Made by a program: the position numbers and the translations under genes
The notes under the pieces: model-generated
The model's database searches: none
What the model was told of the DNA's origin: nothing
Seen by the model: only the letters and a program-made list of their open reading frames with translations
Virus record (IMG/VR): IMGVR_UViG_3300003937_000047
Span: 1 to 33,041 of that record
Direction: 5' to 3' (one strand)
DNA from: a virus
DNA length: 33,041 bases
Shown: one piece after another, positions 1,534-26,907 of the stretch
How the letters are laid out: each line of letters opens with the position of its first letter
How positions within the stretch are numbered: the stretch's first letter is position 1

Positions 1534-4500
1534 TTAACATGTACTTACAATAGTTATTATACCGTTAGTACCCACTTTAAAAAAATTTCTATTATTAAGA
1601 CCCGTATTATTACAGTTATAAGAATAATAAAATGCTGGGGCTAAAGGTGAACTACTTCCGTTGGGACCAGTTCTTATTTCATCACCAACTGTAGGACTAG
1701 AACTTGTTTGGTTATAATAAACAGATTGACCGCACGTAGAGTTTAAAGCTCCACTAAAGTGGCACGATTGTGATTGTACCCCAGGGTCACTAGCGAAAAA
1801 TAGAGTGCCTATAACCGTAGAATTTACAACAACTTGTTGAGTTGCTGTAGAGCTTAATGAACCGTTTGTGGTGTTTCCGTTTGCATCTTCTAGTTTTATG
1901 GTTAAATTAAAAGTACCTGATGGAGTTGAAGCGTTGGGTCTAGATAACACACCTGTAGTTTCATTTATCGAAAATGAATTTAAAGTGTTACCCGCTGTTA
2001 TACTCCATTTTAATTGTTGAGTGTTAGCGCCAGCAACATTTGAAGAAGAACCATTGACACCTGTAATTGTACCTATAGCTCCAGTAACTGCTGTAGTTAT
2101 AGTTATAGTGGGTAAAGAATTTCCACTATTTATTATTGGCGCAGCGTTAGATAAATTACCCCCAAGATATATTTGTGAAGATTCAACACCTGTTGATGTA
2201 ATTATTATACAACCTATTGTAAACTCTCTAATATTTACAGTTTCATTGAAAACAAAATTACCATTAGTAGGGTTTGTTATAAAACTATAACCTGAACCAG
2301 AGTCAGGAGTAAAACTAAATAAACTAGTTACATTATTACTAGCACCATCAAAAACATTAAATGATCCAGGTTTTATAGTAGTTCCTGTTATTGGAGCACC
2401 ACTATTGTTAACTGGAAAAACACCTGACGTAAAAGCAGCGCCTTTAGCTAAAGATTCTGGTTGATTCCAAGTATATGATGCCCAACCAACAGCGCCTGTA
2501 AAATTAGTTAATACAGCCGCATTTAAATCGGCTATTAAACCTGTTGTAGTTGTTTCCCAAAATATATCTAATAAAGATTCTGTAGGGTTTGTTTCATATA
2601 TAGCTAAAACTGGAAAATCATCATCACCTGATTGAGTATCTTGTCTACCAATTGTTTGGTTTCTAGTGCTAATTCTCATTAAATAAGGATCAGATTCATT
2701 TTGATATATACTAGGGTGTTTACTCAATGTGGCTTCTCCGGCTAAAGTAGATTCTACACCTATAGCATCTACATCATGAGTTTTTATATTAGGAAAAAAC
2801 TGTTGATTTAAATTTACAAAAGCACCTGTGTTTAATAATTTATTTTCAACTCTTCCAGATAGCTTAACACTACTTCTATATTGTTTTTGTTCTGGTCCAA
2901 CTTCAGATAAATCTCTAGGTATTTTATTTATATTGTCCCCATATAATGTTGAAAAAGCTGTTTCACCTAATTCCTGACCAAAATATTCTGTGTGACCATA
3001 ATAACCATTAACTATACCTGGTAAATAAGCGTTATAATAATCTTGCTCTTGTTGCTTAACTACAATTTTATATGAATACCAACCAATTGGATTTAAGTTA
3101 TACGCAAATTTAACATCAGCTCCAGAATTACCACTGTCATCATATATTTCTTTATTTATATTTCCGTTGCATGTTACAGTGTATTTACCAGCAGAAGGTG
3201 TATTAGCTTGAACGTTAGTAACCTTAACAAAATCTTTATATTCACCTCTAAGATAATCGTTTACTTGAGGTATATTAGTTGTTGCGGTTGGTATGAAAAC
3301 ATAAGCAGAACCTGTCACAAGAGCATCAAAAGCATTGTTAACATCAAAACCACTTCCTCGTGGAATAGCATATAAACCAGGTTGCCCTATTGATGGGCCC
3401 GATTCTTTAGGTAAGCTATTTGCTCCACCAGAATCTATAGTGCCTCCTAATTGTATTTTTAATGAATCACCAAACCATTCTTTTATAGGATAATTAGTAG
3501 CGTCTGAAGATGTATAAAAAGGATTAAATACAGTGTCACCACCATAGGTATTTGCGCCAACAGTAGTGTTACTAGGTATAACATCTGAAAGTATTACATC
3601 TGATTGTCTACCGTACTTATCTGCTAAAACAAAACCAACTTGATAATTTCTATTTTGTTTAAGAGAGTGATTTGGATATTCAGCCCAAGAGTTATAGTTT
3701 TTAACAGTACTTTTAGGACCTGCGGCTACTTTATAGTTTAAATGAAGAGGTGGAGTATATTTATCTTTAAAATTACCGTATATGATTCTATTACCAGCTG
3801 TTTCTTGTGCAAAAGCTTTTACAGGAACTTTATCATATACTCTTGTTGTTTGATCTTGTGGTAGCGTTCTAAATGGTTTTCTTGATTGATAATCATAATA
3901 AAAAACAGATGAAGTGCCAGACCAATCTGAATCTTCTTCATTTATAGTATCTAAAACCTTTACGCTAAGGCCATCTGATTCTTTGTATAAAATATCAATA
4001 GAAGAAATTTTATAATTAGCATCAACACTGGTGTTAACATTATCTATAGCATCTGGAAAAGGTATTAATAAACCTACGTCTTGCACACCGTTTTCCATAA
4101 ACTGAAGAATTGTGCTTCTAAACGCATTATCTTCATCTAAAGGCGTTGGTGTAGCACCAGTACCAAGATCTCCACTACCTAAAAAATAACCTTTTTGTTT
4201 AGGTATAAAAGCAGCCTGTGTAAAAGGTGCCATTAAAGAATATTCTCCATCGTTAAATCTAAACCTATAGCTAAATCTAACAAACTTGTCTTCTAAAAAA
4301 TCCGGATCACCAGGCCAAGTACTAGCGCTGCCGTTATTAAAATTATCTGTAATATCTACACCAGTCATAGTTGTTGCTAAAAATGTAACGTCTCCAGCAA
4401 TAATATTACTTGACTTATTAATTGTAATTGTAGTTCCAGCTACGTTTGTTACATATATATAGTCTTTAGCTTCCAAAGCAACGTTACCATATTGAACAAC

Positions 4501-5160
4501 AGTCATACCTTTATATATACCGGTTGCAGACGCTACCGCTATTGTTGTAGAGGCTCCAGCTGTTGTGGTAGTTGTTGTAACTTTATTTAATAAATTTATA
4601 GCTTGATAAGGATTATATTTAGCAACAGAAATATTGCTTTCTTCTTTATAATAACCTGGGTTTTCTTTAGCTTTTTTTACATTTATTTTTCTAGGTTGAT
4701 TTCTATCATCAGTGAAAAATAATAAATTTTCTATAGAGCTAACACCTGTTATAAAATGTGTTGTTGAAAAATTTAAAAACGAACCTGAAACCAACAATTC
4801 CCAAGTATTTTGAGCAGACGTAGGACCTAAAAAAAATTCATAAATATAACACTTTGCTGATAGAGGTGCGTATGCTGGATTTCCATTATCATATGGATCA
4901 GTGTAATCCGTTAAAAAAACAAGTATAGTATTGTTTTCTTCATTAGCGTGTTGGCCAATTATAGTTAAAGTATTATCATTAAGAAATGTTATATCTACTA
5001 AATCATTTCCTAAAACAGTTTCTAAAGCACCTATATCATCAGCTTCAGATTTACCTACAGATATGTTCTGCGCATCTCTATATTCACCGTTAGGAATAAG
5101 TCTATCATCCAAGTCTTTATTCATCTTGGATCTTAGAAAACTGTTTTTAATTTCAGCCAT
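1534..5160 (-). CDS. large tail stabilisation/hub-like protein with C-terminal adhesion-type domains
   Basis: This 1208-aa protein opens with a conserved block (KMNKDLDDRLIPNGEYRDAQ at residues 13-31 region, then a GALETVLGN motif near 44-52). A second hallmark, LLFFTDDRNQPRKINV, lies near 145-161. I associate these motifs with a family annotated as stabilisation or tail hub proteins in marine and crAss-like phages. At about 194-262 a Thr-rich linker leads into an inserted beta-repeat (GMTV...ITI...IIAGDVTF). Around residues 1000-1120 there is a cadherin/Ig-like repeat with the signature FSINETTGVLS and a later LEDANGN. The last 80 residues hold four cysteines and end in ITIVSTC, a small C-terminal module. 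It is likely a tail component with surface-exposed C-terminal domains. The core family is reasonably sure, and the domain functions are inferred. Confidence 0.6.
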   Translation of the reverse strand: MAEIKNSFLRSKMNKDLDDRLIPNGEYRDAQNISVGKSEADDIGALETVLGNDLVDITFLNDNTLTIIGQHANEENNTILVFLTDYTDPYDNGNPAYAPLSAKCYIYEFFLGPTSAQNTWELLVSGSFLNFSTTHFITGVSSIENLLFFTDDRNQPRKINVKKAKENPGYYKEESNISVAKYNPYQAINLLNKVTTTTTTAGASTTIAVASATGIYKGMTVVQYGNVALEAKDYIYVTNVAGTTITINKSSNIIAGDVTFLATTMTGVDITDNFNNGSASTWPGDPDFLEDKFVRFSYRFRFNDGEYSLMAPFTQAAFIPKQKGYFLGSGDLGTGATPTPLDEDNAFRSTILQFMENGVQDVGLLIPFPDAIDNVNTSVDANYKISSIDILYKESDGLSVKVLDTINEEDSDWSGTSSVFYYDYQSRKPFRTLPQDQTTRVYDKVPVKAFAQETAGNRIIYGNFKDKYTPPLHLNYKVAAGPKSTVKNYNSWAEYPNHSLKQNRNYQVGFVLADKYGRQSDVILSDVIPSNTTVGANTYGGDTVFNPFYTSSDATNYPIKEWFGDSLKIQLGGTIDSGGANSLPKESGPSIGQPGLYAIPRGSGFDVNNAFDALVTGSAYVFIPTATTNIPQVNDYLRGEYKDFVKVTNVQANTPSAGKYTVTCNGNINKEIYDDSGNSGADVKFAYNLNPIGWYSYKIVVKQQEQDYYNAYLPGIVNGYYGHTEYFGQELGETAFSTLYGDNINKIPRDLSEVGPEQKQYRSSVKLSGRVENKLLNTGAFVNLNQQFFPNIKTHDVDAIGVESTLAGEATLSKHPSIYQNESDPYLMRISTRNQTIGRQDTQSGDDDFPVLAIYETNPTESLLDIFWETTTTGLIADLNAAVLTNFTGAVGWASYTWNQPESLAKGAAFTSGVFPVNNSGAPITGTTIKPGSFNVFDGASNNVTSLFSFTPDSGSGYSFITNPTNGNFVFNETVNIREFTIGCIIITSTGVESSQIYLGGNLSNAAPIINSGNSLPTITITTAVTGAIGTITGVNGSSSNVAGANTQQLKWSITAGNTLNSFSINETTGVLSRPNASTPSGTFNLTIKLEDANGNTTNGSLSSTATQQVVVNSTVIGTLFFASDPGVQSQSCHFSGALNSTCGQSVYYNQTSSSPTVGDEIRTGPNGSSSPLAPAFYYSYNCNNTGLNNRNFFKVGTNGIITIVSTC

Positions 5161-15237: not shown

Positions 15238-17442
15238 CTAATTAATTATTTTTGATTCTCTACCTTTGTTATTATATTTTGCAAAACTTAAATTAACAGG
15301 TTGTCTTACAGTTTCAGGTATGGGTCTATATTTGTTTTTATTACAAGCCATGATAGCTAAACCAGAGCTTATAGATGCATCGTGTTTTGTTCTATTGTTT
15401 ATATCAAACGCCGCCCAATCTTCTAATGTTCTTTGAAAGTACATTGTCCCATATTGCTCATTGTTATAACCAACAAACATTTCTATATAAGCTTCAATAG
15501 CAGCTGCGTGAGCTTGCTTAACATCTTCACTTGAATTAGGTATACCACCTATTTCTTTTTCAGCAACAGATAATTTATACATTGTTTTATCAGGCCTGTT
15601 CATAGAGTAACCTCTATAACCTCTTCTTTTAAAATGATATAACAACCTTGGTTTATTATTTTCAGCAAGAAGTGGCATCCCATAAAAAACACAAGCCATA
15701 AGAACATCTTCAAAAAATATTTCTGCGGTTTGTGGTCTTGATATATATTCTAAAAAGAATAAATTAGGTGGACAATCGTCCATTGTAAACTTTGTTAACC
15801 CATGAAGTGATCCTTTAGATCCTCTACCATCTACTGTTCCTGATATATCATATGAGTCACAACCAAAAGCGCCCATATGTTCATTTGCAGGGTATTTTAC
15901 ACCATTTTTGATAATAATTTTATTTTGTTGGCTTTCGTTAGGAACCCATGAAACAAAAAATCTACCTTGTTTACTTGGAACAAACATAACGCTTGTATCT
16001 TTAATCCCATCTACCCACTGAAAATTACCCTGTGTTATAATAGTAGAGTGTTTTAAATCTTCATTATAATCTATTTGTTCGTATATTTTTGTTAAATTAA
16101 ACAAAGATTGTTTAGTTTCATCTCTAAACGCATGTTTTTCAGTACGTGGAAACTGTCTATATAGTTCATTGAGTGCATCAGGATCGTTCTTAAGGCCATC
16201 TACTTCATTTTCCCAGTGTTCGATAACACCGATTTCAATGGGAAAGCCGTCTGGTCCTTTTTTAGGTTTTTGCGGTGTCTCAAAGACAGGTAGGCCATAA
16301 GAATCGATGTATCCTTCGTAATTCCACTCCATAGGTATGAACAAGCTATATAATCCCGAGCTAGTCTGCCCATTGCGGTTTCTTCTGGTAACGTCTGAGT
16401 CATCATATAATTTTTTATAATTTCTACCTCCTTTATCTAAAGCATTTGACGTTGATCCCATCATACACTTACCTATAATTCTAGAACCTAATCGTAAACA
16501 AGTTTTTGTAACCCTCCAGTTATTTAATATATTGTCAGGTTTTTCCCACTTACCAGATTCATCGTGCACAAGTAGTTTTAACTTTTCACCATCATAACTG
16601 TTGTCTCCAGTGTTTTTCCAGTCAATAGTTGTATCTAATCCTTCTAATTCTTCAAGTTGTTCGTTGCTATCTAGTTTACGTCTTGTAAATCTACTAGCTG
16701 GAACTCTGTATGCAAGTTCTGTTTTGGGTCGATCCATACCATCTTGAATCGGTTTGAAGAAAAATGGATAGTTGACGGAAATTGGTACGATTTTATCGGT
16801 AAACATTTTCTTCGCATCAGCCCCTGACTTTGATAAGACACCGTATCTAGCATCACTAGAGATAGTGGCAAGGTTGACAGTTTCGCCTGATGCCATGAAT
16901 GAAAAACCAGACCGTCTGTTTTTGAGGTAGCACATTCCGTAGCAACGTTTATCTGCTTTACAAGCTTCCCAGAATATAAAGAATAATCTGTTTGCTTCCC
17001 TAAAATCTGCTTGCCCAACATCAATCTTGGACCACTGCAGGTACATGTAATGAGTACCAGTAATATAAGTAACTTTACCTTTATTAGTGAACCAATAGCC
17101 TTCGTGACGCTTAGCAAATTCTCTATCAATATACGCATACCATTTTTCTTTAAAATCATCTGGATATTGTTTCCAGTCAAATATTGTTTTAATCTTTTTT
17201 AATGCCTTAGGATACTCGTGCACTTGCCACTTGTCGTAATCTTTATTAACATTTTTTTCTTTTGGTAACGCTATTTTTAAATTTTGTATTTCATAAACAT
17301 CACCTATTTGACCAGTTTTAGATATAACAACAACATCATATTCTTTATTATATCCATACTCCCATTTTTTAGATTTATTTAATCTTTTTATTACATGAGG
17401 TTTTATATGGTCAATTACTTTATATAAAGTTTGCTCGTACAT
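15238..17442 (-). CDS. terminase large subunit
   Basis: This 734-aa protein is the packaging motor ATPase/nuclease. The ATPase domain shows a deviant Walker A (KNRRSGFS, residues 174-181), a Walker B (LKLLVHDE, 288-295, with the catalytic Glu after Asp) and a coupling motif III (MGSTSN, 328-333). The nuclease domain begins with a strand carrying D529 (AFGCDSYD). Further acidic residues lie near 550-620, but I cannot fix the full triad by eye. A 120-residue N-terminal extension precedes the ATPase domain, as in the large terminases of crAss-like phages. The start overlaps the stop of the 91-aa gene in a TAATG junction, and the stop is TAG directly abutting the portal start. A purine-rich AGAAAGAAGA stretch upstream of the start lies in coding sequence and is probably fortuitous. 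Confidence 0.88.
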   Translation of the reverse strand: MYEQTLYKVIDHIKPHVIKRLNKSKKWEYGYNKEYDVVVISKTGQIGDVYEIQNLKIALPKEKNVNKDYDKWQVHEYPKALKKIKTIFDWKQYPDDFKEKWYAYIDREFAKRHEGYWFTNKGKVTYITGTHYMYLQWSKIDVGQADFREANRLFFIFWEACKADKRCYGMCYLKNRRSGFSFMASGETVNLATISSDARYGVLSKSGADAKKMFTDKIVPISVNYPFFFKPIQDGMDRPKTELAYRVPASRFTRRKLDSNEQLEELEGLDTTIDWKNTGDNSYDGEKLKLLVHDESGKWEKPDNILNNWRVTKTCLRLGSRIIGKCMMGSTSNALDKGGRNYKKLYDDSDVTRRNRNGQTSSGLYSLFIPMEWNYEGYIDSYGLPVFETPQKPKKGPDGFPIEIGVIEHWENEVDGLKNDPDALNELYRQFPRTEKHAFRDETKQSLFNLTKIYEQIDYNEDLKHSTIITQGNFQWVDGIKDTSVMFVPSKQGRFFVSWVPNESQQNKIIIKNGVKYPANEHMGAFGCDSYDISGTVDGRGSKGSLHGLTKFTMDDCPPNLFFLEYISRPQTAEIFFEDVLMACVFYGMPLLAENNKPRLLYHFKRRGYRGYSMNRPDKTMYKLSVAEKEIGGIPNSSEDVKQAHAAAIEAYIEMFVGYNNEQYGTMYFQRTLEDWAAFDINNRTKHDASISSGLAIMACNKNKYRPIPETVRQPVNLSFAKYNNKGRESKIIN

Positions 17443-17717
17443 TATTTAGATCTTCTTTCTGCAAAACCGCCAAAAGCTTCTTTTTTCTTTTCTTCTTTTG
17501 GTTTGTCGTTTAACATATCTTCTTCTTCTTTAATACGATTAAGTATTTCAAAAGCATCAAATATAGCTAGCTTTTTTGTAGCAGCTGCATTTTTTAATCT
17601 ATCAGCTGATATATCATCATCAGAATCAACAATAGCTTCTTTTGCAACTTTAATAAGTTCTTCAACCGCTCTGTGCCCAGCTTGGATTATATTCTTCTTC
17701 GTTTCCTTGACGTTCAT
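17442..17717 (-). CDS. small helical protein before terminase; candidate small terminase subunit
   Basis: This 91-aa protein is almost entirely helical (residues ~1-70; IIQAGHRAVEELIKVAKEAI, then ADRLKNAAATKKLAIFDAFE) with a disordered basic tail. It lies directly upstream of the large terminase with a one-base TAATG overlap, which is the usual place of a small terminase subunit. No clear helix-turn-helix is visible, so the role is positional inference. Its first 56 nt overlap the end of the upstream 201-aa gene in another frame. No internal ATG could shorten this without losing the conserved helices, so I take the overlap as real. The leader ATTATAATAAAAC-ATG is A/T-rich although it is coding. 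Confidence 0.45.
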   Translation of the reverse strand: MNVKETKKNIIQAGHRAVEELIKVAKEAIVDSDDDISADRLKNAAATKKLAIFDAFEILNRIKEEEDMLNDKPKEEKKKEAFGGFAERRSK

Positions 17718-18267
17718 GTTTTATTATAATATCATTTGATTTCATACAATACAAACGCTGGCCATCAACTAAAAATTCATATTCACCAAAAGGTTTGTAA
17801 CCTATAAGGTCTCCCTCGTTGATTTCTAGCGCTTCTAACGCACTATTACCATATTTTAATACACCAATAAGGTTTTGCTCTAAAACGTTATGTATTTCAA
17901 CACTGTCTTTAAGCGGTGCAACAAAACATCTATCACCAAAAGACTTCCATTTGTCTTTAGATTTATATAAATAAACTTGATCTTGTTGTACAAAATATAA
18001 ACCGTCTTTAAAATACGACTTACTATTTTTTTCTTCACCTCTTACATTATACCATCTTCTAAATACATTATGATGAATCATTATTAAATCACCTTTTTTA
18101 ACAGGTGTTTTATATGATAAAGGTACTTCTATTACTTTAGCTATATTGTTTACAGCTTTAAAAGTTTCTATTTGAGTATTGATTATAAGGCTTTTGTCAC
18201 CTACCTTAACTTCATTATTATATCGCTGACCGTAAGGTTCAACGATAAAATCAAAAACGCTTTTCAT
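17662..18267 (-). CDS. two-domain GroES-like protein (tandem co-chaperonin fold)
   Basis: This 201-aa protein reads as two GroES-like domains. Domain 1 (~5-105) has FIVEPYG, a VKKGDLIMIHH strand (~56-66) and ends in DGLYFVQQDQVYLY. Domain 2 (~108-185) is clearer: FGDRCFVAPLKD (110-121) matches the GroES opening DRV-V-P, IGVLKYG (134-140) matches the G-V--VG turn, EGDLIGYKPFG (151-161) matches VGD-V-F---G, and FLVDGQRLYCMKSNDIII (165-182) matches the terminal DGEEY-I---DIL. The C-terminal tail is acidic/polar. Co-chaperonins cap the GroEL ring. T4 gp31 is a phage precedent for capsid folding. A classic mobile loop is not obvious, so it may be a diverged capping or structural protein. It starts in a TAATG junction with the 75-aa gene. 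The tandem nature is my inference from pattern. Confidence 0.55.
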   Translation of the reverse strand: MKSVFDFIVEPYGQRYNNEVKVGDKSLIINTQIETFKAVNNIAKVIEVPLSYKTPVKKGDLIMIHHNVFRRWYNVRGEEKNSKSYFKDGLYFVQQDQVYLYKSKDKWKSFGDRCFVAPLKDSVEIHNVLEQNLIGVLKYGNSALEALEINEGDLIGYKPFGEYEFLVDGQRLYCMKSNDIIIKHERQGNEEEYNPSWAQSG

Positions 18268-22601: not shown

Positions 22602-23066
22602 CTATATTATTTTGTATTTAGTTTTACCGTTTTCTTTATAAGCTTTTAAACATCTTCTTCTGTTTGCATCTTCAGATACATAACTTACATGTACCCAATT
22701 AGGGTTTTCATCCGTACCAAATTCCCAAATAATTTGATCAAAATCTAAATTATTTTTTATATACTCATACATCTCTGCATTAGTTTTATGACCATAGTTA
22801 TCGTCTAGGTCAAGTGCGCAACCAATACAATGTTGAGAAGTTGTGCTTCCGCCAATAGCAGAATTGAGTTGGGGCGAGCGATAGAAACTATTAATAGCGA
22901 TTGGACCACCCACCCATCTACGTAGAGGTTCAAACACTTGCTCTGCAATAGTTTTCATGTTAATTAAATCTATTTCTCTAGGTGTATTGTCAATACCAAG
23001 CCTAGTAGCTGTGTGAGATTTAATCCCTTCTTTAAGCGAGATGTGTTCACTTATTCTATCACTCAT
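22602..23066 (-). CDS. endolysin, peptidase M15 family
   Basis: This 154-aa protein shows the metal-binding pattern of M15 (D,D-carboxypeptidase/L-alanyl-D-glutamate type) peptidases. SQHCIGCALDLDD (78-89) gives H79 and D86, a second site WVHVSY gives H126, and the strand FDQIIWEF with E115 is a candidate catalytic acid. An upstream FYRSPQLNSAIGG (61-73) is the family's substrate-side motif. No signal peptide is present, so it needs the holin to reach the wall. Length agrees with phage M15A enzymes. It lies among small basic virion genes; the holin is 3.3 kb downstream. The leader TTTCACTAAA-ATG has no Shine-Dalgarno. The assignment is sure to the family level. Confidence 0.85.
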   Translation of the reverse strand: MSDRISEHISLKEGIKSHTATRLGIDNTPREIDLINMKTIAEQVFEPLRRWVGGPIAINSFYRSPQLNSAIGGSTTSQHCIGCALDLDDNYGHKTNAEMYEYIKNNLDFDQIIWEFGTDENPNWVHVSYVSEDANRRRCLKAYKENGKTKYKII

Positions 23067-23822: not shown

Positions 23823-24266
23823 TTATCTGTTTTTATCTTTATTAACGTGATCAATAGACGTAATCATAACTTTGTCTATATATGTTTTACCTTTCATTAT
23901 TTTGTTTCTAGTAGTTGAAGTCGGTATATCTTCTTTACCAAGCATAATACGGTACATACGGCTTATGAGTTGTTTACACTTGAAGGAAACTTTATAAATA
24001 TTATACTTTTGAGTTGTGCGGTTGTGTTTTCTCCAAACCGTTATCCAACCTTCTTTAAGTAATCTGTTCCAGCGTCTATTGTCCCAACTATAAGAATACG
24101 TACCGATTTTAAAATCTTCTCGTGTAAAAAGATCCATGCAATCGAAATAAATTAACAATTCTAAATCAGCATCGTTTAAATTATTATTTTTACAAGCCCA
24201 TTTTCTAATGATCCTGTAATGTTTTAAAAGATTATGATTTCTAATATCACTTGGTTCTAATCTCAT
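23823..24266 (-). CDS. winged-helix-like DNA-binding protein candidate
   Basis: This 147-aa protein has a helical N-terminal part (KHYRIIRKWACKNNNLNDADL, ~15-35) and then LELLIYFDCMDLFTREDF. Next comes a segment YSWDNRRWNRLLKEGWITVW (~58-77) that looks like a recognition helix followed by the first wing strand (WITVWRKH), then YNIYKVSFKCKQLISRMYRI. This is the pattern of MarR-like winged-helix proteins I have seen in marine phages, though no autoregulation is shown. It starts in an ATGA overlap with groES. A regulator linked to the chaperonin operon is plausible, and a structural DNA-binding protein is the alternative. Function confidence is moderate to low. Confidence 0.5.
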   Translation of the reverse strand: MRLEPSDIRNHNLLKHYRIIRKWACKNNNLNDADLELLIYFDCMDLFTREDFKIGTYSYSWDNRRWNRLLKEGWITVWRKHNRTTQKYNIYKVSFKCKQLISRMYRIMLGKEDIPTSTTRNKIMKGKTYIDKVMITSIDHVNKDKNR

Positions 24267-24523
24267 AACACTACCACTACGTGTGCTATATTTACAACTT
24301 GATATATTTCTTTTTTAATTTCAATTTGATGAGCGTTATTTTTATCAAAATAAATAACATCATTTTTTTTAATACTTTTTATATTGTCACCAACTGATAT
24401 TATAGTTCCTTCTGCATACCTTATATCTTCTCGTTGTTTTTCTGCTAAAAATAAACCTCCCTTTGTTTCTGAAACGCCTATTTTAGACATTTGAACTATT
24501 AAATTATTACCTATTGCTTTCAT
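24263..24523 (-). CDS. groES: GroES co-chaperonin
   Basis: This 86-aa protein matches GroES. The N-terminal strand is NNLIVQMSK, followed by a mobile-loop region VSETKGGLFLAEKQ (18-31), the classical E-G-x-I-x-x-V-G-D turn (AEGTIISVGD, ~38-47), the K-x-x-D-V-I-Y-F strand, and a C-terminal EIYQVVNIAHVVVVL. It is about 10 residues shorter than E. coli GroES. It caps the phage GroEL ring. The mobile loop keeps the GG-hydrophobic triplet (G-G-L-F-L) used to dock on GroEL. It follows groEL, the reverse of the usual bacterial order, and overlaps its 3' end by 17 nt. An ATGA overlap links it to the downstream winged-helix-like gene. Confidence 0.85.
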   Translation of the reverse strand: MKAIGNNLIVQMSKIGVSETKGGLFLAEKQREDIRYAEGTIISVGDNIKSIKKNDVIYFDKNNAHQIEIKKEIYQVVNIAHVVVVL

Positions 24524-26063
24524 TAACTCTAAGATTATTAATTACACAATCGGTTGATAGAATAGTTGTAGCGACAGAGCTTGCATTTTTTAAAGCGCTT
24601 TTTGTGACGAGTAAAGGATCAATAATTCCTGACTCAATCATATTTACCATATTTCCTGTAACAACATTTAAGCCTTCTCCTTGAGTTTTAGATACTTTAG
24701 CATTAACTATACCCGCGTTTAACAATATAGTTTCAAAAGGTGCTTTAATTGCTCTTAAAAGTATGTTTTCACAAGCGTTTTCTGATTTAACTTGTTGTGA
24801 TGCATTTAATAATGCAATACCACCGCCTGGAACTATACCCTCTTTAATAGCAGCTTTAGTAGCACATATTGCGTCTTCAACTCTATCTTTTTTTTCTTTT
24901 AATTCAACTTCAGAATTAGCACCAACTTTTACAACAGCAACTTTACCAGATAATCTAGCTAATCTTTTTTCAAGATTAACTATTATAGCTCCATGTTTAG
25001 CTGTTTTAAGTCTAGATTTTAAATCTTCTATTAAATTTTTTATTTCCTCACTAACTTCATGAACTTGCAATATTGTCTCATGCTCACTAGTTATAGTTTT
25101 TTTACATTCACCTAATTGTTCTGGTTGTATTAAATCAATATCATCACCTAAGTCTTCATTAATAACAGTTGCACCAGTTAATAAAGCAAGATCTTCTAAA
25201 GTTTCTTTTTTATTAACACCATATATAGGAGCGTCAATAACATTAACTTTTATATTGCCTTTTATTTTATTCATTGCAAGAGCAGACATAACCTGTTGAT
25301 CAACATCAGCTATAATAAGTAAAGCTCTTTTGTTTTTAATAGCATACTCTAAAACAGTTTGTATTTTTCTTACATTATCTATTTGAGATTCTACTATAAG
25401 CACTAAAGGTTTTTCTAATTCTGCAGTTTTTGTATCTTGATTAGTTACAAAATGAATATTTTTTAAACCTCTATTGTATTGTACACCATCTATTGTTTCA
25501 AATTTAGTTTCTGGTAAATCTGAAACTTCTAGCATTACAACACCTGTTTTATCAACCGATCTAAAAGCGTCTGCAATAATTTTACCTAATACAGGGTCAT
25601 TGTTGGTAGATATAGTTGCTACTTGATCTATCATTTCATCTTCAACTGGAATTACAATTGAATTCAAGTAATCTACAACTTTATTTGTAGCACTCTGTAT
25701 ACTTTCTTTTACTTCTCTTGCGTTTTCTTTTGTTATTACTCTGTATGCTTCATTTAATATTGAATGCGCTAATACTGTGGCTGTAGTTGTTCCGTCACCA
25801 GCTTCACTAACAGTTTTTTTAGCAGCTTGCTTGAGTAATGTTGCTCCCATGTTTTCAACGGGATCAAGAAGTGTAATAGCTTCAGCTACAGTTACACCAT
25901 CTTTTGTGATAATTGGTTGGCCAGTACCATCTTCTAACATAACACACTTACCGCTAGCTCCTAACGTGGAGCTAACAGCTTGTGTAAGTTTCGTAATACC
26001 AGCAAACACATTGTTTTTAGCATCTAAACCAAAGTTCAGATTCTTTACAATTGCATTTGACAT
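24507..26063 (-). CDS. groEL: GroEL chaperonin (phage-encoded)
   Basis: This 518-aa protein aligns along its length with GroEL. ATP site: TLGASG (33-38; E. coli has TLGPKG), TKDGVTVAEAI (53-63, D55), GDGTTTATVLA (89-99, D90), the distal catalytic-type aspartate in RVEDAICATKAA (D397), PGGGIALL (412-419) and the IIDP motif near the end (D482). The apical domain (~190-370) keeps the fold but has RGLKNIHF (198-205) where E. coli has RGYLSPYF, so two substrate/GroES-contact tyrosines are replaced. The C-terminus ends at NESNR without the GGM tail. It folds phage proteins such as capsid or tail subunits together with the GroES encoded next to it. The leader has AATTT four times. It starts 29 nt after the 106-aa gene. 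Confidence 0.92.
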   Translation of the reverse strand: MSNAIVKNLNFGLDAKNNVFAGITKLTQAVSSTLGASGKCVMLEDGTGQPIITKDGVTVAEAITLLDPVENMGATLLKQAAKKTVSEAGDGTTTATVLAHSILNEAYRVITKENAREVKESIQSATNKVVDYLNSIVIPVEDEMIDQVATISTNNDPVLGKIIADAFRSVDKTGVVMLEVSDLPETKFETIDGVQYNRGLKNIHFVTNQDTKTAELEKPLVLIVESQIDNVRKIQTVLEYAIKNKRALLIIADVDQQVMSALAMNKIKGNIKVNVIDAPIYGVNKKETLEDLALLTGATVINEDLGDDIDLIQPEQLGECKKTITSEHETILQVHEVSEEIKNLIEDLKSRLKTAKHGAIIVNLEKRLARLSGKVAVVKVGANSEVELKEKKDRVEDAICATKAAIKEGIVPGGGIALLNASQQVKSENACENILLRAIKAPFETILLNAGIVNAKVSKTQGEGLNVVTGNMVNMIESGIIDPLLVTKSALKNASSVATTILSTDCVINNLRVNESNR

Positions 26064-26514: not shown

Positions 26515-26907
26515 CTACTCAGCCTCTTCCTCTTCAATTTCTTCTTCTTCTTCAACAGGTGGTACTGGTGGGTTTTGCCATGTAAAGTATAAATCTTCGT
26601 TTACAGGTGTGATTTCAAGCTTGATATTATCTTCAATAGATTTAGCTATTGCGGCCACGTCTAAAGCATCTTCAAGCCATCCGATTACTACAGCTTCAAA
26701 AGCTTCAGTGTCTGCATAAGGCACAAAAGGATCTCCTGGTATGTATTGAAAACCTTGAGCACCTATTGAACTCGCTGAATAAGTTTTTCCTCCAGATTCT
26801 TCCGAGCCTGAGTAAGTCCAATGCACTGTGTATATCACGTTATCTTCACCTTCAGCTTGAATATGTGCATTCATTTGGTTAATTGTCCATTTGTAAGTAA
26901 TTGCCAT
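26515..26907 (-). CDS. conserved small virion/fibre-linked protein (DUF7936-like)
   Basis: This 130-aa protein begins MAITYKWTINQMNAHIQAEG, with a VIYTVHWTYSG strand and a conserved turn PFVPYADTEAFEAVVIGWLE (~60-79). It ends with an acidic tail (PPVPPVEEEEEIEEEEAE). I have seen this pattern in small proteins next to tail-fibre genes of marine phages and cyanophages, and think it corresponds to DUF7936, without being able to verify. The acidic tail is a notable low-complexity extension. It lies 4 nt after the last fibre gene, so it belongs to the fibre operon. Tail-fibre attachment or assembly help is a guess. Confidence 0.5.
   Translation of the reverse strand: MAITYKWTINQMNAHIQAEGEDNVIYTVHWTYSGSEESGGKTYSASSIGAQGFQYIPGDPFVPYADTEAFEAVVIGWLEDALDVAAIAKSIEDNIKLEITPVNEDLYFTWQNPPVPPVEEEEEIEEEEAE

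Follow-up and report, generated by a model that had tools for sequence, protein, structure and literature searches.

Chaperonin genes of related phages and of flavobacteria

Phage-encoded chaperonins and lids are known from several systems. The elemoviruses (Flavobacterium phages vB_FspP_elemo, Baltic Sea), the phage MW202828 (Podoviridae sp. ctfjg026) and Cellulophaga phage phi38:1 (Pervagoviridae) carry both GroEL and GroES, phage EL encodes the chaperonin gp146, and phage T4 encodes the lid gp31. According to PMC5332604, 36 of the 78 marine genomes in a group that includes phi38:1 carry GroEL, and the phi38:1 GroEL appears in tables of proteins found by infection proteomics (PMC13288928). 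The GenBank annotation of the cultured elemophages already shows both genes, with groEL first. In their abstract, Marine et al. (ISME J, 2017) reportedly linked the order of both genes to GroEL phylogeny. Here we describe the groEL–groES pair of IMG/VR virus record IMGVR_UViG_3300003937_000047. The full record of 33,041 bases, probably a piece of a larger genome, is called the window. Its chaperonin genes, with lengths in nucleotides (nt) or amino acids (aa), are as follows.

24507..26063, − strand: groEL, 518 aa, ATG start, first of the pair (Pfam Cpn60_TCP1, 3.6e-59; phrog_5725, 4.3e-138)
24263..24523, − strand: groES, 86 aa, ATG start, second of the pair, modelled without a roof hairpin (Pfam Cpn10, 4.8e-10)
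24507..24523, − strand: 17-nt groEL/groES overlap, with the groEL stop TAA across groES codons 5-6 (gg-TAA-t)
24263..24266, − strand: groES stop/gene X start overlap, ATGA
23823..24266, − strand: gene X, 147 aa, a conserved third gene (phrog_17028, unknown function, 2.9e-9)

An initial annotation of the window had given exactly these coordinates and both overlaps, and had described the order as the reverse of that in bacteria. To compare the order with that of the presumed host group, we used a sample of 99 genomes belonging to the same order as G001 (Flavobacteriales; a Flavobacteriaceae metagenome-assembled genome by title). GroEL was found in 94 of them, at 95 places over the cut-off; four partial matches below the cut-off were dropped. 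At 94 of the 95 places groES lay upstream on the same strand within 1,500 nt, and at one it was not adjacent. These data bear out the reversal. They also speak against the phage order being that of the presumed host group, as groES was downstream at none of the 95 places. Among the bacterial loci nearest to the window GroEL (best 80 of 582), groES was upstream in 37 and no groES was present in the stretch in 42; in L096, a Planctomycetota locus among these 80, groES lies between two groEL genes.

Among relatives of the window in IMG/VR, groEL came first in all 80 loci fetched, the best 80 of at least 536 matches. With the window these make 81 loci. One of them, L002, matches the window at 100% identity and could come from the same virus; at <95% identity, 44 rows including the window are left. 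The elemo-like loci had groEL first in 13 of 14 cases, the remaining locus being cut inside groEL, and the MW202828-like loci (best 80 of 442) in 77 of 80, the other three showing no groES in the stretch. By contrast, groES was first in both phi38:1-like loci and in immuto, SJC03 and MW202566. Five Vibrio phages showed no groES within the stretch retrieved. The crAss-like phage cr111_1 was considered as a further groEL-first case and rejected: its 89-aa frame, with a 35-nt overlap, scored E 0.37 and 0.33 against the GroES profiles in a search space of two sequences, which is no match.

The groEL-first order is an old trait common to the phage group and reflects no recent rearrangement. It is ordinary in this group and was already visible in GenBank. 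We consider it probable that the chaperonin operon of the window is viral and inherited, belonging to a phage group whose known members infect Flavobacteriia, and that it encodes a folding machine for virion proteins.

The described phages differ from the window in the surroundings of the pair. The elemoviruses resemble it in having groEL first, with a 1-nt overlap with groES, an adjacent X relative, and cpn10 immediately before the terminase frame. Unlike in the window, their X is convergent, the chaperonin pair is opposite to the structural genes and GroEL is 38% identical. MW202828 and its IMG/VR relatives likewise have groEL before groES, and the MW202828 terminase is 63% identical to that of the window (44% in the Flavobacterium elemophages), whereas X is convergent, GroEL is 36% identical and spacing is very variable. 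Phage phi38:1 shares with the window GroEL, GroES of the same clade and, ahead of the terminase, a gene of phrog_13932, but its groES comes first, and the pair, split by one gene, lies among replication genes.

Overlaps, gene X and translational coupling

The initial annotation had proposed that the overlaps fix the stoichiometry of the products by translational coupling. In such a scheme, a ribosome ending groEL would restart on groES and then on X, and the overlaps would be kept for the resulting ratio. Some of the evidence is in keeping with this. An overlap of 1–20 nt was present in 80 of the 81 loci (17 nt in 58, 20 in 17, 4 in 3 and 1 in 2); L082 (an elemophage), L083 and L084 were left out of this set, the apparent 44-nt overlap of L084 being due to an upstream start; the alignment places the start of groES 48 nt further on, beyond the end of groEL. 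groES ended in ATGA in 72 loci and in GTGA in the other nine, and of the 78 loci in which X was located, 77 had its start 4 nt inside the groES end; in the three loci without X, the stretch ends within about 310 nt past groES. By eye, no strong Shine-Dalgarno-like stretch precedes groES in the junction alignment.

Other observations argue against selected coupling. The length of the groEL/groES overlap varies, and the groES/X junction is steadier. In L077, 374 nt separate intact groEL and groES, and an endonuclease VII/HNH-type homing endonuclease-like frame was recognized there by eye (L077:6555-6928). The elemo-like loci have overlaps of 1, 4, 17 and 20 nt, and in the MW202828-like loci spacing ranges from small overlaps to about 2 kb, often with genes in between; these spacings are approximate, since groES was taken to begin at the last ATG that yields 78 aa or more. 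Finally, dense packing is general in the window. With 36 same-strand frames taken as genes, 8 of 35 junctions overlap (1, 1, 1, 1, 4, 4, 17 and 56 nt) and a further 19 are separated by 0–20 nt, so the groEL-groES overlap is the second longest in the window and not unique. Overall, a fixed stoichiometry is not borne out. Because the overlap varies and is interrupted, coupling, which may be helpful, is hardly essential across the group. It is plausible within the window's own clade, and selection for it as the cause of the overlaps appears doubtful.

The junction sequences suggest another origin for the overlap. The groEL stop sits in groES codons 5-6 as gg-TAA-t or gg-TAG-a; most 20-nt overlaps carry ggg-aat-aat there, which shifts the stop by one codon, and the 4- and 1-nt overlaps use a frame other than that of the 17-nt form. 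Since the frames differ and the next stop lies in groES codons 5-6, a small indel could interconvert the 17-nt and the 1-/4-nt forms. The 17-nt overlap thus probably arose incidentally, through a small indel immediately ahead of the groES start codon.

By eye, the product of X reads like a winged-helix protein; family searches gave no support for this. X also adjoins groES in the elemo-like (13 of 13) and MW202828-like (76 of 77) loci, but is convergent there. In phage phi19:3 (L390), positions 3617-4746 hold two GroES-type genes with an X relative nearby, and no GroEL match was found in this phage. In phi19:3 and phi18:3, whose GroES proteins are identical and count as one case, a single-domain groES is separated by one small gene from a convergent X relative (E 3.9e-18).

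The arrangement in these two phages could suggest that groES beside X came first and that groEL was gained upstream later, producing the reversed order. The GroES tree argues otherwise, as it places phi19:3 with Bacteroides phage SJC03 (93/85), outside the clade (100/99) that holds the window, although joining phi19:3 to that clade was not rejected in the approximately unbiased (AU) test (p 0.26). In addition, phi38:1 has both genes with groES first. We regard this history as rather improbable.

The GroEL ring and its candidate lids

The window GroEL matched the Group I chaperonin profile Cpn60_TCP1 with 201 bits, against a cut-off of 34.3, over positions 1-487 of 490, and is 38.7% identical to E. 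coli GroEL. Residues D52, D87-T91, D398, G414-G416 and D495, which we take to form the ATP/Mg site, are identical in the window, and P33 is replaced by Ala. Over 14 ATP-site positions, identity to the host majority was 0.98–1.0 in the 44 nonredundant phage rows.

Contacts between rings have fared differently. We compared ten inter-ring positions, part of which we assigned on our own assumption; two of them, 434 and 467, are not host-conserved (0.30 and 0.29). The host residue was retained in 2% of the 44 rows at A109, 5% at R452, 5% at S463, 20% at V464 and 75% at K105, and R452 was most often K in the relatives. Mean loss of host identity over the ten positions was 0.54 vs 0.28 at matched equatorial positions, a modest difference (one-sided p 0.019). 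R452, E461, S463 and V464 are named as inter-ring residues in PMC12696368. Among 12 other phage GroELs, two of them groEL-first relatives, 11 keep only 0–3 of the ten contact residues and SJC03 keeps six. The contact loss is therefore not special to the window clade. An exact SR1 signature at 452/461/463/464 was sought and rejected, as the alignment gives E452, N461, K463 and V464 in the window.

Two further features set the phage proteins apart. A Gly-Gly-Met motif was present in the last 30 residues of 0 of 81 phage rows vs 85 of 111 bacterial rows; such a tail is common but not universal, and is not required of the GroEL family. The apical changes L234Q, V263A and V264M are fixed in the 80 loci. 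These positions presumably bind lid and substrate in E. coli GroEL, and the changes would fit a matched private lid. The earlier statement that both proteins keep their main motifs thus holds for the nucleotide-site residues, apart from P33, and for the mobile loop of the lid; most ring-ring contacts are not kept, and neither are the C-terminal Gly-Gly-Met and the roof hairpin of GroES.

Judged by its residues, the window GroEL is possibly single-ring. Chaperonins that work as single rings are known from other phages, reportedly including AR9. Phage EL gp146, which is 26% identical over 86% of the window GroEL, is likewise a phage-encoded chaperonin with altered ring-ring contacts, and its double rings are reported to separate with ATP (PMC7185714, PMC5934643). 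Unlike the window, which encodes a lid, gp146 is described as needing none (PMC5934643).

The GroES of the window has the Cpn10 fold according to profile and structure searches (Cpn10 profile, 39.8 bits vs a cut-off of 21.1; Foldseek E down to 3.8e-6; Z up to 11.8). In the AlphaFold2 model (predicted local distance difference test, pLDDT, 87.6), the strand at residues 36-44 runs to residues 56-60 without a hairpin, and the alignment has a 9-column gap relative to E. coli GroES at the roof hairpin. The protein is accordingly modelled as a roofless lid. In this it resembles T4 gp31, which also has the GroES fold but no roof hairpin; the model matched the gp31 chain of 2cgt with a Z of 9.9. gp31 serves the host GroEL, whereas the window phage encodes its own, and the absence of roof loops in gp31 is thought to admit the larger T4 capsid protein (PMC6318259). 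The hydrophobic tripeptide of the mobile loop, I25/V26/L27 in E. coli GroES (PMC5575113), is kept: the loop reads GG-LFL in the window and mostly GG-LFL or GG-LLL in the clade, with lower model confidence there.

A second GroES-like gene lies near the terminase gene.

17662..18267, − strand: second GroES-like gene, 201 aa, probable tandem Cpn10-type domains (phrog_13932, co-chaperonin GroES, 3.4e-27)
17442-17717: 91-aa frame between the second GroES-like gene and the terminase gene

The 201-aa protein scored below the cut-off for Pfam Cpn10 (0.023). Residues 1-103 superimposed on Cpn10 structures with a Z of 7.9 (root-mean-square deviation, RMSD, 2.5 over 81 residues), and a Z below 8 may reflect a common arrangement. 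The second half matched a wide GroES profile that had been iterated over a set holding the window, so this match is not independent of it. Both halves were matched only by chain R of 7ekq (CrClpP-S2c; Foldseek E 2.7e-4, 156 residues, RMSD 4.7), which we take to be a double-domain chloroplast co-chaperonin. Tandem-domain lids are known as the Cpn20 of chloroplasts and apicoplasts. The model itself is weak (pLDDT 66, with much of the second half <50). Together, these data suggest that the gene likely encodes a tandem lid. Genes of phrog_13932 also precede the terminase in the elemophages, where the relatives are annotated cpn10, and in phi38:1, phi19:3 and MW202828. Since phi19:3 is without a GroEL match, its phrog_13932 protein would have to serve the host GroEL.

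These features could be combined into a private three-part machine: a single-ring GroEL with decayed ring contacts, a roofless matched GroES, and a second, tandem lid beside the packaging genes. The two lids would then perhaps serve different virion clients. We consider the full combination unlikely. If a single ring and a roofless lid were true of these phages, they would offer a natural test of single-ring chaperonin cycling, which could be run with the elemophages in culture. The limited collection of literature searched, as far as its text was available, holds no mention of a roofless lid, a second lid or the overlap in these phages.

Origin and probable role of the operon

In the GroEL tree, the window clade (support 100) stood outside bacteria on a stem of 1.66 changes per column. 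The wider GroEL tree, which omits cr111_1 and Vibrio K368, both present in the first, joined the three groEL-first lineages (window, elemo and MW202828) at 85, with phi38:1 and immuto outside. In the GroES tree, for which elemo-like and MW202828-like rows were trimmed to the last 86 or 88 residues, 25 rows from these three lineages and phi38:1 formed the 100/99 clade, away from hosts. These data argue against a scenario in which host genes were captured recently and shuffled locally. The best cellular GroEL matches (40–42% identity) do include Bacteroidota, but the long, fully supported stem lies outside bacteria and hosts are groES-first; we consider such a capture highly improbable. Nor do they support the initial suggestion that the genes were acquired separately, as GroEL and GroES both lie apart from hosts, which is as for a co-carried pair. 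The trees are weak, however, and an exchange may have occurred.

A long phage history of the groEL-groES pair is well supported by these sequences. In the inherited operon that we favour, a phage ancestor would have carried both genes, the order would have gone from groES-first to groEL-first, and the pair would then have diverged far from host chaperonins. One order switch in a phage ancestor is the simplest reading. Consistent with it, the portal tree (six rows) grouped elemo, window and MW202828 without phi38:1 (96/97) and rejected elemo with phi38:1 (AU p 0.028).

Several results weigh against this account. The support of 85 for joining the three lineages was not starred; it came from a quick search, and the join is one at which long branches come together. 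Within the GroES clade, phi38:1 is nested among groEL-first rows, next to those of window and MW202828 (94/87), although holding phi38:1 outside the groEL-first rows was not rejected (AU p 0.30). In the terminase tree (six rows), elemo and phi38:1 form a pair (100/100), and a grouping of elemo with window and MW202828 is rejected (AU p 1e-4); the elemo and phi38:1 terminase frames are about 100 residues longer. The conflict between terminase and portal over the placement of elemo and phi38:1 means that these phages have exchanged packaging genes, and a single switch with strict vertical descent is not secured. Moreover, identity between window and MW202828 is 36% for GroEL, 51% for portal and 63% for terminase, so groEL is possibly fast-evolving or was replaced in one lineage. 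The host, too, is assigned through relatives: it is probably a flavobacterium, because the phage records that match the terminase carry flavobacterial names (of 87, 68 Flavobacterium, 15 Cellulophaga, 2 Tenacibaculum and 1 Maribacter, with 1 Caudoviricetes, MW202828). Co-expression and clients, discussed below, are for this phage predictions from gene layout and analogy. The term 'rearranged' in the initial annotation therefore stands in a broad sense, hosts and several phages being groES-first and the switch falling inside a phage lineage; that there was a single switch is not clearly borne out by the GroES and terminase trees.

The layout also suggests how the machine would be used. groEL, groES and X are co-directional with overlapping ends, and genes for tail fibre, endolysin, holin, terminase, portal and virion protein lie on the same strand. 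Because same-strand overlapping genes stand among structural and lysis genes, we infer that the three products are probably synthesized jointly in the late phase of infection. With its ATP-site residues intact, the GroEL ring would bind and hydrolyse ATP and would presumably be capped by its own GroES. With a roofless lid, as in T4 gp31, the cage could hold larger virion proteins, and capsid, tail-fibre or portal proteins are the likely clients. These phages of flavobacteria would seem to swap the host folding cage for their own ring and lids. With gene order an ordinary trait of the phage group, the question of order is closed, and the machine is the testable part.

A Bacteroidota-type promoter pattern had four matches in the window, all on the + strand, vs 2.3 expected, and 23 of 100 shuffles reached four. 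Three neighbouring genes provide context.

15238..17442, − strand: terminase large subunit, which places the phage (phrog_6681, 2e-162)
22602..23066, − strand: endolysin/M15 peptidase, downstream of the chaperonin genes (phrog_894, 1.3e-29; PF08291, 2.1e-14)
26515..26907, − strand: DUF7936 protein, upstream of groEL (PF25590, 2.9e-20)

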